A DNA stretch of 32,755 nucleotides from the NCBI GenBank assembly GCA_021323955.1, contig JAJPKC010000552.1, positions 1 through 32,755 on the forward strand, read 5' to 3'. Made by a program: the position numbers and the translations under genes. Below the pieces are notes generated by a model. The model saw only the letters and a program-made list of their open reading frames with translations. It was not told where the DNA came from and ran no database searches. The first letter of the stretch is position 1, and every line of letters starts with the position of its first letter. Below are positions 21,681 through 32,510 of the stretch, piece after piece. The DNA comes from Oscillatoriales cyanobacterium Centralia_MAG_596. Its GTDB lineage: Bacteria; Cyanobacteriota; Cyanobacteriia; Leptolyngbyales; Leptolyngbyaceae.

Positions 21681-22880
21681 TTATTCATCCGCATCATTTT
21701 GGGATGGCTGGTAGCTGGGCCGATTGTTCGTTGGCTCACGATCACTTTGTTGTGCCGTCGCAGATGTTGGCTGCTGCCCACTGTCCGATGCTGCGTCTGT
21801 AGACTGTACATCTGCTGCTTTGACCGTTAATTGGGAAAGGCTGAGGTGCCTGTGGGGTGACATCCCCCATTGATCCATCACGTCTTCGAGCAGCACTCGG
21901 CGGATCCAAATCTGGCTCACAACCGCCAGCGGCAAAGCCAGGGCAAATCCTAAAAAACCGAAGATGGTGGCAAAAAAGACTTGCGCTAATAGTGTCGCCG
22001 CAGGTAGCAGCGAGACTTGTTGCGCCATGACATAGGGCGTCAGTAAGTTGCTTTCAAACTGCTGGATCGCAATATACAGCACAAGCACAAACAGGGGTTT
22101 TACGGGAGAGTCCAGGAGTGCCGTGGCCATGGGCAAAATCACACTGAGTGTCGGTCCAATATTGGGGATGAAATTCAGCAATCCTGCCAGAATGCCTTGA
22201 GCCAGCGCCGCTTTAACGCCTAATAGCGCGAGTCCAATACTGCTGAGAATGCCAACGACACTCATACTAATGAGGGCACCGATGACCCATCGCCCAAGCG
22301 AAAACTCACATTCACTGAGAATACTACTGACGCGATCGCGGTAAAACGCCGGGAACAGACGAATGAAGCCTCGACGGTAGGCCATTGGGTTCAGCAGCAG
22401 CATCAACGCCAAAATTAGTACCAGCAGGATGTTAACCAGCACGCCTAAGGAACTGGAGAAGATGGCAAGGGAACCGCTCAGGAGCCGATTGAGATAGGGT
22501 TGGATCTGCTGCGCGAGGCTATCCAGACTGGGTAGGTAAGCACTGAGCGCCTGTGGCACTAATTGAATCAGATGGTTCGACCAGTCATTGAGTCGATCGA
22601 TGCCAGCGGGCACTAGCACAATGAGTTCCTGAAACTGGGTGGCGAACGGCGGCACAATCAGTAGAAAAAAGATCACCAGCACTGACAGGAAGCAGCCGAC
22701 GGATAGCAACACAGCAACGGAGCGACCGATACCTGCTTTCTGAAACCGCTGTGCCAGCAGATTCAGGCTATTGGCCAGAACCACTGCTGCAAACACCAAC
22801 AGCAGCACCTGACGGATCTGCCAGAGAATATATAGACAAGCCGCGAGCGCTAGAAATCCAATTGACTGACCCAGGTTCAC
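21681..22880 (-). CDS. AI-2E family transporter (TqsA-type permease)
   Basis: This 399-residue protein is a polytopic membrane protein with about eight spans: two at the N-terminus (IGFLALAACLYILWQI, then LLLVFAAVVLANSLN), one near VLLSVGCFLSVLVIFFLLI and the rest after residue 150. The family signature GLLNFIPNIGPTLSVILP lies in the conserved core, followed by IQQFESNLLTPYVM. Family members export small molecules such as AI-2 or act in ion homeostasis. The substrate here is unknown. The GTG at 22878-22880 is preferred, because GGAG lies 6 bases upstream and it gives MNLGQSIGFLAL. The TTG at 22890-22892 would add four residues. The C-terminal 50 residues are hydrophilic and Ser/Gln-rich. Confidence 0.92.
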   Translation of the reverse strand: MNLGQSIGFLALAACLYILWQIRQVLLLVFAAVVLANSLNLLAQRFQKAGIGRSVAVLLSVGCFLSVLVIFFLLIVPPFATQFQELIVLVPAGIDRLNDWSNHLIQLVPQALSAYLPSLDSLAQQIQPYLNRLLSGSLAIFSSSLGVLVNILLVLILALMLLLNPMAYRRGFIRLFPAFYRDRVSSILSECEFSLGRWVIGALISMSVVGILSSIGLALLGVKAALAQGILAGLLNFIPNIGPTLSVILPMATALLDSPVKPLFVLVLYIAIQQFESNLLTPYVMAQQVSLLPAATLLAQVFFATIFGFLGFALALPLAVVSQIWIRRVLLEDVMDQWGMSPHRHLSLSQLTVKAADVQSTDAASDSGQQPTSATAQQSDREPTNNRPSYQPSQNDADE

Positions 22881-22918
22881 AGTGAACTCCAAAGCGAAGG
22901 TGAAGAACGGTGTGAGGA

Positions 22919-23116: not shown

Positions 23117-23461
23117 GAGAAATCAGAGCGAATTACAGTCAGCATAGTCGAATGGTTACAGCATTGCTTCGGCGATCTAACCTGCGTCCCGTGATCAGAC
23201 ATGCAAGTGTTCTTGATCCCCATCCAGTACCTTCCTGACTTAGCGTGTGTTCTAGGCTCAGCCTTCGTCAACCCAAATCAGTCTCCACATCGATCGCGCC
23301 GTCTTGGTGGCGTTGTGGTCAACGGAAATGAGCCATCGTAATCCTGATCACTGCTAATTCATTTGGGGCATCCTACCTTTGAAACTTTAGCCAATTTAGA
23401 TAAAGTTGGCGTTGCTTGAATCCGGCGCGTTTGCCCCATACTGCGCATCTTTAGGAGTCCT
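23117..23461. other. Intergenic region without a supported gene
   Basis: No gene or strong promoter pair was found in this 345-bp divergent region. AGGAG lies 4-5 bases before the kinase ATG at 23462 and is its ribosome binding site. An AT-rich patch near 23380-23400 may contain the kinase promoter. Confidence 0.5.
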
Positions 23462-24784
23462 ATGCTGGAGTCATTACAATATTTTCTCGATCCACAGGGG
23501 TTCATCGCACACGGCCATTGCTACCTGTGGCAACCGAACCTGGTCTGGCTTCACGTAATTTCCGATGGCGCGATCGCGCTTTCCTACTTCTCGATCCCGT
23601 TAACGCTGGTTTACTTCGTTTCCAAACGCCGAGACATTCCCTTCAACTGGATTTTTTGGATGTTTGGTTTGTTCATCATTGCCTGTGGTGTTGGGCATGT
23701 CATGGATATCTGGACACTCTGGCACCCCACCTACTGGCTTTCAGGAACCGTGAAGGCATTTACCGCCCTCATTTCTGTCATCACGGCTTTAGAACTGATA
23801 CCGCTAGTGCCTAAAGTGCTGGCACTGCCCAGTCCAGCCCAGTTAGAAGCGGCCAATCGGGAACTGGAAACCACATTGAACCGGCTCCAACAAGCTCAAA
23901 TGCAGCTGATTCAAACAGAAAAGATGTCTAGCCTGGGGCAGTTGGTGGCTGGCATTGCCCATGAGATTAACAATCCCGTCAATTTTATTCATGGCAACCT
24001 GATCCATGCCAACGAATATACGCACAATCTGCTGCAGGTATTAAACGCCTACCAGTTGGCCTATCCTGAGCCTGTTCCAATGGTGCAAGCCGCGATCGAT
24101 GCCAACGATCTGGAGTTCCTCAACGATGATCTGCCCAAAATGCTGTCGTCAATGAGAGTGGGTACTGACCGGATCCGTCAGCTTGTGCTCTCACTTCGAA
24201 CCTTTGCCCGTCTGGACGAAGCGGAGATGAAACCAGTGAAGGTGCACGAAGGCATCGATAGCACTCTGATGATTCTTCAAAGCCACCTGAAACCCAGACT
24301 GGGATGGCCGGGCATCCAAGTTGTGAAAGAGTATGGCAATCTGGCTCCCGTTGAATGCTACGCGGGCCAGCTCAATCAGGTGTTTATGAATGTGCTCAGC
24401 AATGCCATTGATGCTCTGGAAGCTGATCCGAAGTTTTTGTCGTCTGATGCCCAGTTGGGTGCTGAGCCAACGGCATTGCCGACGATTCATATCCGTATGA
24501 CAACGCTCGATTCATCCTGGCTATTGGTTGAAATTACCGACAACGGGCCTGGGATGCCGGAGCACATCAAGTCCCGTATTTTTAACCCCTTCTTTACCAC
24601 CAAATCGGTTGGTAAAGGGACAGGACTGGGACTATCGATTAGCTACCAAATTGTGGTTGAGAAACATAATGGACGACTAGAATGCTCCTCGATCGTGGGT
24701 CAAGGAACCACGTTCCGTATTCATATTCCCATTCAGCGGTGCGCGGAAACCCAGCTGACTCTTACAACCCCGTCTCAGCCATAG
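23462..24784 (+). CDS. Ethylene-receptor-like sensor histidine kinase
   Basis: This 440-residue protein starts with three membrane spans that match the ethylene-binding domain of plant ETR1 and cyanobacterial receptors. At a constant offset of ten residues it keeps every ligand residue known from ETR1: Asp35, Tyr42, Ile45, Pro46, Ile72, Cys75 and His79 (ETR1 25, 32, 35, 36, 62, 65, 69). Cys75 and His79 would hold Cu(I). A short coiled coil (about 127-152) leads to the kinase: H-box AGIAHEINNPVNFI with His167, N-box NQVFMNVLSNAIDAL, ITDNGPGMP and GKGTGLGLSIS. There is no GAF, PAS or receiver domain, and no response regulator gene is adjacent, so it is an orphan. A role in ethylene or light/motility signalling is inferred from Synechocystis. 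Confidence 0.93.
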   Translation: MLESLQYFLDPQGFIAHGHCYLWQPNLVWLHVISDGAIALSYFSIPLTLVYFVSKRRDIPFNWIFWMFGLFIIACGVGHVMDIWTLWHPTYWLSGTVKAFTALISVITALELIPLVPKVLALPSPAQLEAANRELETTLNRLQQAQMQLIQTEKMSSLGQLVAGIAHEINNPVNFIHGNLIHANEYTHNLLQVLNAYQLAYPEPVPMVQAAIDANDLEFLNDDLPKMLSSMRVGTDRIRQLVLSLRTFARLDEAEMKPVKVHEGIDSTLMILQSHLKPRLGWPGIQVVKEYGNLAPVECYAGQLNQVFMNVLSNAIDALEADPKFLSSDAQLGAEPTALPTIHIRMTTLDSSWLLVEITDNGPGMPEHIKSRIFNPFFTTKSVGKGTGLGLSISYQIVVEKHNGRLECSSIVGQGTTFRIHIPIQRCAETQLTLTTPSQP

Positions 24785-25281: not shown

Positions 25282-27603
25282 CTAGCTATCAGCGGGAGCT
25301 GGTGCTGCCTCCGCGATTGTAACGGTCGTCACTGGAACTTGAAGTGGATGTGCTGGATCGGGGGCAATCCATCGACTGGCCTGGTTAAGAGAATAGAATC
25401 CACCACAGAGCAGCAGCCGATCGCCTCCTTGTAAGTCGCTATCACCATCGGGAAAATGGATGAATTTTCCTTCGCGGCGAATCGCCTGAACCAGGACACC
25501 AAACTGTCGTCGGATGTGAAGCTCAGCCAGCGTTTTTCCAACCACCGGGCTGTGTTCTGGCACCAGTAACCATTGGCAGGAAGCATTTTCTGCTGGGACG
25601 GCCGCTTCCCCCTTTGCTAACTCGTCAAAGGCGGCAATCTCAGTGGTTTCACCCACCACCAGTAGGCGATCGCCCTCTTGCAACAGGGTTTTGACATCGG
25701 GGTAGTCAAGTTCTTCGCCGTTTTCCCGCTGGATCGCCATAAGGCTAACACCAGTCAAGCGACGCAGATCCGTTTCTTCTACCGTCATGCCAATCAGCGG
25801 CGACTCATCTGGCAGCGGATACCAGCGGCTGTTCATATCCTGAGCAGCGGCTTTGAGTTCGCGCGATACCTGGTAAGATGGCCGCTCCGATCGCAGTTCC
25901 AGGTAGTGTGAACTGCGAATCTGCTGCACTTCACGCTGAATTACCGGCAGCGGTAAGCCTAGCTCAGTCAAGAGGTGTGAGGACAGTTCGAGACTGGCTT
26001 CAAATTCTGGCTGAACCACTTCTTTCGCCCCTAATTGATAGAGCAGTTCAATATCCTTATCCTTATTTGCTCGGACTACCACATCGAGGTCAGGGGCCAA
26101 CTCCAACGCGCGCTTCAGGCAAAGTCGAGTGCTCATTGGATCAGGGAGAGTAATGGCCATACCCTGCGCCGTGTCTGCACCCGCTTTTTCTAACACGTGC
26201 AAACTCGCTGCATTGCCATACACATAGGCAATGCCCGCTTCGCGCACTTCCTGGATACGCCGTTCTGACTGGTCAATGACCACCACCGGGTAGTTGTGCT
26301 CCCGCAAGAGCTGCACAATGTTGCGGCCTACCTGCCCATAGCCGCAAACAATCAGGTGATTCTGTTTGGGTAAGTCATCAGATACTTCCAGTGCCACATC
26401 GGTTCGTTCCAGGTAGCTTTTTAGCCAGGGCAAAGATTCTGCCCATGCAAAGACTTGCGGAATCAATCGCAGGACAAAAGGCGTTAACACCAGCGTGACA
26501 GCCGTTGTCCCCAGGATCAGCAAGTAAACCCGCCGGGAAACCAATCCGAGCGCTTGACCTTCGCTCGCCAGCACAAAGGAAAATTCACCAATCTGTGCCA
26601 GTCCAAATCCGGTAATCAGCGCTGTTTTGAGCGGGTACCGGAACACCATCACCAGCGGTGTCACAATCAGGAACTTACCAATGAACACCAGTGTCACCAG
26701 GCCCAGAATCAACTCCAGGTTGTTCCAGAGAAACACGGGATCAATCAGCATCCCGATCGCGGCAAAAAACAGACACGCAAAGATATCCCGCAGTGGCTCA
26801 ACATAGTTCAGGGTTTGGTCGGCGTACTCGACTTCGGAGATCATCAAGCCCGCGACGAATGCTCCCATCTCGATCGAAAGCCCTAAATGCTCCGTGAGCA
26901 GAGCAATGCCCAAACAGATTGCGACTACACCCAATAAAAATAATTCTCGACTCTCAGTGCGCGCGAGCAATCGCAGCAGTGGTGGAATGACCCAGGTTCC
27001 GGCAATAACAGCCCCTAACCCCAGCAGCCCTGTCTGTAGCAGTGCCCAACCAACGGCCAACCCCACTTCTTCTACAGGTTTATCAAGTGCAGGCAGCACT
27101 GCCAGCATTAAACCAAGTGCCAGATCCTGCACGACCAAAATTCCCAGCATCACCTGCCCGTGAGGCGTCCCCGTCTCATTACGCTCCATGAGACACTTCA
27201 GCACCACTGCCGTCGATGAGAGGGACAAAATCGCACCCAGAAATACGCCTTGAGCCGGCGATGTCACCCAACCCATCCCGATCGAGACAATGGCTGTTAT
27301 GGCGATCGTCAGCACGATCTGTAAACCGCCTCCGCCCAGGCTAATACCCTTAACCTTTTTCAGCTCGGAGAAAGAAAATTCGACCCCTAAGGCAAACAGC
27401 AAGAACGCGACGCCAAACTGTGCCAGCGTCTCCACCTGAATGAGTTCCTTGATCAGCCCTAACCCTGCTGGGCCAACAATCATTCCCGCTAGCAAATAAC
27501 CCAATAGAATGGGCTGCCTTAGTATCGCTGCCAGAATGCCGCCTGCCGCCGCTGCCGCCAATACTGTGACCAAGTCAACGATGAGTCTGAAATCTTCTTG
27601 CAC
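25282..27603 (-). CDS. CPA2-family cation:proton antiporter with RCK domains (KefB-like)
   Basis: This 773-residue protein has about twelve membrane spans in its first 390 residues, with the CPA2 signatures PILLGYLLAGMIVGPAGLG and AFLLFALGVEFSFSELK. A cytoplasmic TrkA-N (RCK) domain follows from about residue 405 (NHLIVCGYGQVGRNIVQLL, an NAD-binding GxGxxG). Two TrkA-C domains come next (DESPLIGMTVEE and EHSPVVGKTLAEL). It exchanges K+ or Na+ for H+ and is probably gated by nucleotide and ligand binding. Two TrkA-C domains are more than in KefB of enteric bacteria but common in cyanobacteria. The ATG at 27601-27603 fits the N-terminus. It is divergent from the M23 peptidase gene across 186 bp. 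Confidence 0.94.
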   Translation of the reverse strand: MQEDFRLIVDLVTVLAAAAAGGILAAILRQPILLGYLLAGMIVGPAGLGLIKELIQVETLAQFGVAFLLFALGVEFSFSELKKVKGISLGGGGLQIVLTIAITAIVSIGMGWVTSPAQGVFLGAILSLSSTAVVLKCLMERNETGTPHGQVMLGILVVQDLALGLMLAVLPALDKPVEEVGLAVGWALLQTGLLGLGAVIAGTWVIPPLLRLLARTESRELFLLGVVAICLGIALLTEHLGLSIEMGAFVAGLMISEVEYADQTLNYVEPLRDIFACLFFAAIGMLIDPVFLWNNLELILGLVTLVFIGKFLIVTPLVMVFRYPLKTALITGFGLAQIGEFSFVLASEGQALGLVSRRVYLLILGTTAVTLVLTPFVLRLIPQVFAWAESLPWLKSYLERTDVALEVSDDLPKQNHLIVCGYGQVGRNIVQLLREHNYPVVVIDQSERRIQEVREAGIAYVYGNAASLHVLEKAGADTAQGMAITLPDPMSTRLCLKRALELAPDLDVVVRANKDKDIELLYQLGAKEVVQPEFEASLELSSHLLTELGLPLPVIQREVQQIRSSHYLELRSERPSYQVSRELKAAAQDMNSRWYPLPDESPLIGMTVEETDLRRLTGVSLMAIQRENGEELDYPDVKTLLQEGDRLLVVGETTEIAAFDELAKGEAAVPAENASCQWLLVPEHSPVVGKTLAELHIRRQFGVLVQAIRREGKFIHFPDGDSDLQGGDRLLLCGGFYSLNQASRWIAPDPAHPLQVPVTTVTIAEAAPAPADS

Positions 27604-31049: not shown

Positions 31050-31080
31050 ATAAGTGGCATGTTTGAAAGCAAAGCGATCC

Positions 31081-31740
31081 ATGAACCAGTCCGTTTCTGC
31101 ATCCTGGTCGTCGTTGGGTACAACCAGTTCCGCAACGACCGTGTCCGCCGAAAATCTTTCCAACCTCGATCTTGTCTTACAGTGTCAAGCCGGGAATCGC
31201 CCGGACAAGGCTGCATTTGCAGAACTGCTGCGTCGGCATCAATCTCATGTTGAAAAGGTGCTGTATCACCTGGCTCCAGATTGGCACGATCGCTCCGATT
31301 TGACGCAAGAGGTCTGGATCAGGGTATATCGTAATATTAAGCGCCTCAATGAGCCGATTAAGTTTCGCGGATGGCTGAGTCGGATTGCTACCAACCTCTT
31401 CTATGATGAGCTTCGCAAACGTAAGCGCAACAATTTACCACTGTCGCTCGACACACGTTTGACGGTTGAAGATGGTGAAATGGATTGGGAGATTGCCTCT
31501 GATATGCCTGGCCCCGATGAGGACTTAACGACCCGTGAATTTTATGACCAACTTCAGTTGGCGATCGCTGACCTCCCAGAGGTATTTCGGACCACGATTG
31601 TGCTGCGTGAAATTCAGGGTATGGCGTATGAAGAAATTGCTGAAATGACAGGTGTGTCTTTAGGTACAGTTAAGTCAAGGATTGCTAGAGCGCGCCTACG
31701 GCTGCAATCGCAACTGCAGCGTTACCTTGACGGCAACTAG
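31081..31740 (+). CDS. sigG: ECF RNA polymerase sigma factor, SigG type
   Basis: This 219-residue protein has sigma region 2 (about 45-115, with DLTQEVWIRVYRNIKRL and FRGWLSRIATNLFYDELRKR) and region 4 (about 155-212, with LPEVFRTTIVLREIQGMAYE and GVSLGTVKSRIARARLRL). The spacing and the MDWEIASDMPGPDEDL linker are typical of cyanobacterial SigG, a group 3 sigma factor tied to envelope stress. The start is the ATG at 31081 because it gives the SigG N-terminus MNQSVSASWSSLG. The frame extends nine codons further. Its putative anti-sigma factor gene follows after 176 bp, which is longer than the usual overlap for such pairs. Confidence 0.93.
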   Translation: MNQSVSASWSSLGTTSSATTVSAENLSNLDLVLQCQAGNRPDKAAFAELLRRHQSHVEKVLYHLAPDWHDRSDLTQEVWIRVYRNIKRLNEPIKFRGWLSRIATNLFYDELRKRKRNNLPLSLDTRLTVEDGEMDWEIASDMPGPDEDLTTREFYDQLQLAIADLPEVFRTTIVLREIQGMAYEEIAEMTGVSLGTVKSRIARARLRLQSQLQRYLDGN

Positions 31741-31916
31741 TCACGGAGCTTGAAGTGCAGCCATTGACAATTTTTTCATTAAGGCTGTCGCATAATTACG
31801 GAACTCAGGGTTTACTGGTGACTAGGCTGTATCTTGCTCTCGTTTGTTCGCATCTGAATCCGATCTATTCTTTAAATATCTAAGTGCGTTCTCTCAACAC
31901 ACGACGTGGTGCCGAA

Positions 31917-32510
31917 ATGACCTCTAACTTTAACTCTTCAAACGATAACCGTCAGCCGTCTTCTACGCCCGGTCAAGCGCCCTCTTCATGCTCATCGAAT
32001 CTAGTGCAGCGCGATCGTTTTGAGCTATTGAGTGCTTATCTGGATGGTGAGGTAACAGCAGCCGAGCGAAAGCAAGTAGAGGACTGGTTGGCGAATGACG
32101 AAACCGTACAGCGCCTGCATGCGCGTCTGCTGAAGCTCCGCCACGGGTTACAAACAATGCCCGTGCCTGCAGCCCGGCAGTCGACCGAACAAACAGTCAA
32201 TCAAGTGTTAGCACGCGTTGAGCGGCAACCGCGGTTGTCACTGGTGTGGGGAGGAGCGGCAATTGCAGCCCTATTTATTGGGGCGTTAGTGAGTAGCATT
32301 TTGCCTGGTACCCGATCGCCAGTGCCTCAGATTGCGGAAGGCTCCAAGCAACCGACGATGGAGTCACCCCAGTTAAACAATGCTAATGAAACGTTGCTAG
32401 TCGCGCTGGACAAACCGTTAGTTGCGATCCCGAAGACGCCTGTGGTTGTGCCCAACCCATCGCTTAAGGATGCCTCAAATTCGATGACTCCTGGCGGGGG
32501 GACACACTAG
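31917..32510 (+). CDS. Putative membrane-anchored anti-sigma factor
   Basis: This 197-residue protein has an N-terminal Ser/Asn-rich stretch, an anti-sigma-like helical domain (FELLSAYLDGEVTAAERKQV, then LANDETVQRLHARLLKLR), one membrane span (LVWGGAAIAALFIGALVSSI, about 109-128), and a Pro/Thr-rich periplasmic tail. Zinc-type anti-sigma factors have HxxxCxxC. Here only one Cys exists (Cys25), so this is a zinc-free version. The ATG at 31917 is preferred. The frame starts eleven codons earlier. Position next to sigG and the architecture support the role; binding is inferred. Its end overlaps the opposite-strand gene at the window edge by 47 bp. The 176-bp gap before it holds a second GGAAC motif (31800-31804) and a TTGACA, neither with a convincing -10. 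Confidence 0.8.
   Translation: MTSNFNSSNDNRQPSSTPGQAPSSCSSNLVQRDRFELLSAYLDGEVTAAERKQVEDWLANDETVQRLHARLLKLRHGLQTMPVPAARQSTEQTVNQVLARVERQPRLSLVWGGAAIAALFIGALVSSILPGTRSPVPQIAEGSKQPTMESPQLNNANETLLVALDKPLVAIPKTPVVVPNPSLKDASNSMTPGGGTH

Follow-up and report, generated by a model that had tools for sequence, protein, structure and literature searches.

A predicted ethylene-receptor histidine kinase with direct sensor-to-kinase coupling in an Oscillatoriales cyanobacterium

To our knowledge, all bacterial ethylene receptors characterised so far have further sensory modules interposed between ethylene-binding site and kinase, and these modules blur the route from ethylene binding to the kinase. In plants, ETR1 and ERS1 possess a GAF domain, to which ETR1 adds a receiver, and they act in the membrane of the endoplasmic reticulum. 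Among the bacterial proteins, the binding domain of AzoEtr1 binds radiolabelled ethylene (PMC11819568), and Cu(I) serves as the cofactor for ethylene binding (PMC11819568, PMC12643061).

The window studied here is the whole stretch of 32,755 nucleotides of contig JAJPKC010000552.1 from the filamentous organism Oscillatoriales cyanobacterium Centralia_MAG_596. We consider it likely that one of its genes encodes an ethylene receptor kinase that depends on Cu(I), is of the shortest form in the ETR1/SynEtr1/AzoEtr1 family and passes its signal along one uninterrupted helix to an unlinked response regulator. The gene is a sound yet ordinary member of a known receptor family.

Gene, domains and ethylene-binding signature

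The gene occupies 23462..24784 on the forward strand, starting with the ATG at 23462, and has full-length orthologues at 60–76% identity. By motif match, the preceding interval (23379..23461, +) holds a ribosome-binding site, AGGAG, a few bases 5' of the ATG, and a possible weak promoter, TTGAAA-16-TAAAGT; promoter matches were no more frequent than in shuffled sequence. Pfam analysis of the 440 amino acid product revealed ETR1_N at residues 27–122 (149.7 bits against a cut-off of 27), HisKA at 158–180 and HATPase_c at 303–425 and nothing beyond these, with no match to a GAF, PAS or receiver domain. The ETR1_N profile (PF25487, 149.7–153.5 bits) returned an E-value of 2.9e-44, which excludes a chance match. 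The ethylene-binding domain (23540..23827, +) has the three-helix membrane organization of this type, as judged from the Pfam match, the model helices and the hydrophobic segments. The canonical kinase motifs are complete: the H-box HEINNP locates the predicted phospho-acceptor His167 at 23960..23962 (+), and NQVFMNVLSNAIDAL, DNGPGM, FNPFFTTK and GKGTGLGLS represent the N, G1, F and G2 boxes, intact in the HATPase_c domain (24368..24736, +). Only about 44 residues lie between the end of the sensor (122) and His167, and Pfam bears out the description, in an earlier note on this DNA, of a sensor leading straight to a kinase core without the GAF, PAS or phytochrome parts of characterised cyanobacterial receptors. 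Its placing of the protein among the ethylene receptors is likewise upheld by the 149.7-bit match and the residue alignment that follows. The protein is thus a member of the ETR1-type family, and its assignment as a receptor is likely.

Residues D35, Y42, I45, P46, I72, C75, H79 and K98 of the window protein correspond to D25, Y32, I35, P36, I62, C65, H69 and K91 of ETR1. The comparison sequence is one which we take to be that of ETR1; Pfam recognised it as ETR1_N (114 bits) plus GAF. All seven binding residues align with ETR1, at the one constant offset (+10) that had been claimed, and with AzoEtr1. The residue identities given earlier therefore stand, but the numbers called ETR1's are the window protein's own, those of ETR1 being 10 lower (7 lower for K98). 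In the AzoEtr1 copy on an Azospirillum brasilense plasmid (L164, 525 amino acids), D35, C75, H79 and K98 are found at identical alignment positions, and it is these positions that are named for AzoEtr1 in PMC11819568. Alignment with a verified receptor at the signature residues had been set beforehand as the test that could refute the reading, and the alignment survived it.

The signature is the family default, which disposes of it both as a special and as a unique feature: all seven residues are kept in 92 of 103 distinct ETR1_N domains (each of at least 90 residues), C75 in 102 and H79 in all 103. Among the exceptions are L010 (P46A), L037, in which most binding residues are lost, and four orthologues from a second family, f20, with Asn at position 35 (L193/L225, L226, L227 and L228); Asp35 is retained in the f20 orthologues L223, L224 and L229. 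Binding by ETR1 requires the equivalent D25, which has been modelled as positioning a copper ligand (PMC11819568), and no report of Asn being tolerated there was found in the literature searched. Either Asn is acceptable at the site, or this part of the clade has drifted in its use of ligand. Elsewhere in the family, Gln takes the place of the helix-3 lysine corresponding to ETR1 K91 in G000:C638 (L161) and on Acaryochloris plasmid pMB01 (L165).

Linker spacing and helix continuity

The AlphaFold2 monomer model (mean pLDDT 80.7, pTM 0.60, few sequences covering the sensor) places helices at residues 25–55, 62–87 and 91–112, then a short helix and a break, and finally a single helix at 125–200 that carries His167 and has a regional pLDDT of about 67–95. 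The helix joining sensor and DHp is thus predicted to be continuous from residue 125 to 200. Its first part, the putative signalling helix or coiled-coil linker (residues 125–166; 23834..23959, +), runs unbroken into the first DHp helix in this model and is of fixed spacing. A sequence search found no solved structure of the sensor domain, and the fold-search matches shown were to the kinase core, not to a solved ethylene sensor.

His79 and His167 are exactly 88 residues apart in all 19 HE[IL]NNP members of that length class examined (the window protein and 18 others), among which linker sequence identity falls to 62%; the same spacing occurs in a Novosphingobium protein (L169). Other short HEINNP-type proteins show spacings of 81, 109 and 116, whole heptads from 88, or of 89, through one additional residue within the linker; this heptad pattern is limited to the short HEINNP type, was recognised post hoc and involves few independent lineages. 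A strict heptad law for all linkers was rejected, since HEINNP-type lengths of 127, 155 and 173 and several HELRTP-type lengths break it, most HELRTP-type linkers falling outside any one length class. The 88- and 89-residue forms are co-resident in G005, G006 and G010, the 89-residue copy of G010 being broken by a stop. Engineered LOV kinases respond to light in opposite directions according to whether the linker length is 7n or 7n+1 (PMC6798134). By analogy with this inversion, as engineered in the light-sensing kinase YF1, the sign of the ethylene response in directly coupled receptor kinases might be set by the coiled-coil register, with the 88- and 89-residue forms responding oppositely as a natural counterpart, a proposal which we regard as tentative and unlikely. 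The lineage-fixed spacing of 88, the spacings of 81, 109 and 116 elsewhere, that of 89 in the co-resident paralogue group, and Asn35 in four orthologues are the details that are new here.

Distribution, genomic setting and response regulators

ETR1_N was present in 28 of 39 relatives, in 89 of 386 genomes sampled across the phylum and in 208 of 388 (about half) sampled across the class; the two samples differ in composition, their rates are not contradictory and neither is unbiased. Genomes carry up to nine copies, that of the window seven, and the window copy has one of the highest ETR1_N scores. Full-length orthologues were discovered in four of six sister species (75–76% identity) and in three further genomes of the same family (67–68%), and orthologues occur in eight f20 genomes (61–64%), two of them damaged or partial. 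The sensor-domain tree, built from few columns and with many unresolved forks, groups the window protein with members of both families. The copy in G006 (L148), a genome listed in the window's genus, is identical in its sensor sequence to that of Stenomitos rutilans HA7619-LM2 (L008), which makes the genus of this strain the most likely source of the window. In several genomes of one family, genes with an ethylene-binding domain occur as tandem pairs, spaced by about 1.7 kb, one with a shorter and one with a longer kinase (G146:C1:1395284-1397238, G377:C93:40108-42064, G175:C6:704963-706911 and G246:C161:43519-45468).

Direct coupling had been put forward as a special feature. It recurs in several cyanobacterial families and in Novosphingobium, and directly coupled relatives elsewhere in the tree rule out uniqueness. 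These include a Nostocaceae group (L009, L176, L200 and L201), and L169 likewise falls elsewhere in the sensor tree than the window protein; a second directly coupled group belongs to the window's own genus and family (L153–L155), and two more have longer linkers (L203/L204 and L189/L209). Another directly coupled receptor gene, L011:7941-9325 of Cyanobacteria bacterium RM1_2_2, is frameshifted in helix 1 and may be a recent pseudogene or an assembly error. Alphaproteobacterial relatives lie beside response regulators, in Novosphingobium as an overlapping gene and in Blastomonas as two regulators, the kinase part of the Blastomonas protein being of a different type.

The window gene is flanked by a divergent AI-2E family transporter gene (21681..22892, −; Pfam), on the side of which HAD and FKBP proteins are also encoded, and by a convergent gene for a CPA2 monovalent cation:proton antiporter with TrkA domains (25282..27603, −), with a tRNA-Lys between the latter and the receptor kinase gene. 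From this arrangement, it follows that the receptor kinase gene stands alone. Two sister species (G002 and G003) share the neighbourhood on both flanks; in G010 and G007, its upstream part is kept. A partner was sought through conserved gene order and rejected: the sister-species neighbours are the AI-2E transporter, HAD, FKBP and antiporter genes, with no response regulator. Downstream genes in more distant orthologues vary (FtsH; a permease-kinase fusion), giving no constant partner. The fusion, at L151:10743-13289, joins an amino-acid permease domain to a histidine kinase shortly 3' of the G022 orthologue. L156 and L157, short frames beside REC-PAS kinases, were dismissed as partner cases, since their post-sensor regions differ and they are not direct HEINNP kinases. 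Towards the far end of the window, 31054-32510 holds a gene for a sigma-70-type factor with regions 2 and 4; the gene after it encodes a putative anti-sigma domain resembling zf-HC2.

No Response_reg match was found among the window ORFs scanned by Pfam, in agreement with the earlier report that no response regulator lies nearby. Such an orphan state is hardly unusual: in G010, a related genome, 46 of the 108 HisKA matches on the main contig lack any listed receiver domain within 5 kb, and kinases without such a neighbour are therefore common. "Orphan" describes the window locus and not the architecture, since some directly coupled relatives adjoin response regulators.

Proposed mechanism and known systems

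The reading as a Cu(I)-dependent receptor kinase draws on the ETR1_N match, the complete kinase boxes and the alignment of the seven residues and K98 with ethylene-binding AzoEtr1, together with the fixed spacing of 88, the helix model, orthologues in two families, the kept neighbourhood and the minimal alphaproteobacterial relatives beside response regulators. By analogy with studied relatives, the protein would bind Cu(I) and ethylene, dimerise and carry out phosphotransfer. Within its three membrane helices, C75 and H79 would hold Cu(I), D35 would lie beside them, and the copper would be bound in turn by ethylene. A change in helix 3, on the K98 side, would then pass along the uninterrupted helix 125–200, presumably dimeric in the working protein, directly to the DHp bundle. 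Acting via His167, the kinase would then shift its balance between phosphorylation and dephosphorylation of a response regulator whose gene lies elsewhere.

Copper itself could instead be the physiological signal, the kinase being a membrane copper sensor, as had been suggested. Almost every member retains C75 and H79, and full-length ETR1 becomes more rigid on loading with Cu(I) alone (PMC12643061); yet the kept residues include those that ETR1 needs for ethylene binding, AzoEtr1 and SynEtr1 bind ethylene with the same domain (PMC11819568, PMC6682694), and none of the window proteins scanned was recognised as one that handles copper. Since Cu(I) is a known cofactor for ethylene binding (PMC11819568, PMC12643061), nothing specific favours a copper sensor, which we find very unlikely. 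The domain might also have drifted, through the same copper site, to another small hydrophobic ligand or to a redox state. The window copy itself argues against such drift, keeping all seven residues and K98 and scoring among the highest, although seven ETR1_N copies in one genome suggest specialisation and the site does vary (D35N in four orthologues, K98Q in a paralogue); on balance, we judge this unlikely. That the gene is a decaying or signalling-dead duplicate appears extremely improbable, given its open frame, its intact kinase boxes, four sister-species orthologues at 75–76% identity and a locus conserved in two of these species, even though decay exists in the family, as in the L011 frameshift, an in-frame stop in L229 and the lost binding residues of L037.

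Under the preferred reading of a Cu(I)-dependent ethylene receptor, a natural 440-residue protein with only a helix between sensor and kinase would offer a clean and convenient system for ethylene-to-kinase switching. Comparing it with the paralogues of 89-residue spacing and with the orthologues that carry D35N leads to specific mechanistic predictions that can be tested.

Arabidopsis ETR1 and ERS1 have the same N-terminal domain with the seven binding residues; they differ in their GAF domain (and, in ETR1, the receiver) and their ER membrane location, whereas the window kinase is bacterial and has HEINNP as its H-box. WP_230487955.1 (L169), from plasmid p2 of Novosphingobium sp. ES2-1, is a minimal sensor-kinase with the 88-residue spacing and all seven residues, but is alphaproteobacterial and has a different DHp sequence, HDFNNL; the end of its gene is overlapped by that of a response regulator. 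On this conjugative plasmid, the kinase and regulator genes adjoin a type II Cas9 gene. Like the window protein, SynEtr1, GeiEtr1 and GeiEtr2 join an ethylene-binding domain of cyanobacterial origin to a histidine kinase (PMC6682694). GeiEtr1 has a GAF domain, GeiEtr2 has PAS, GAF and receiver domains, and SynEtr1, which is also a photoreceptor, resembles them in its PAS/GAF arrangement (PMC6682694); all of these parts are absent from the window protein. AzoEtr1 resembles it in the same ethylene-binding domain, a C-terminal histidine kinase and the lack of a receiver domain, but has 525 amino acids, a PAS domain between sensor and kinase and a response-regulator gene just downstream (PMC11819568), and in the L164 copy of AzoEtr1 the spacing between the two histidines is 210.
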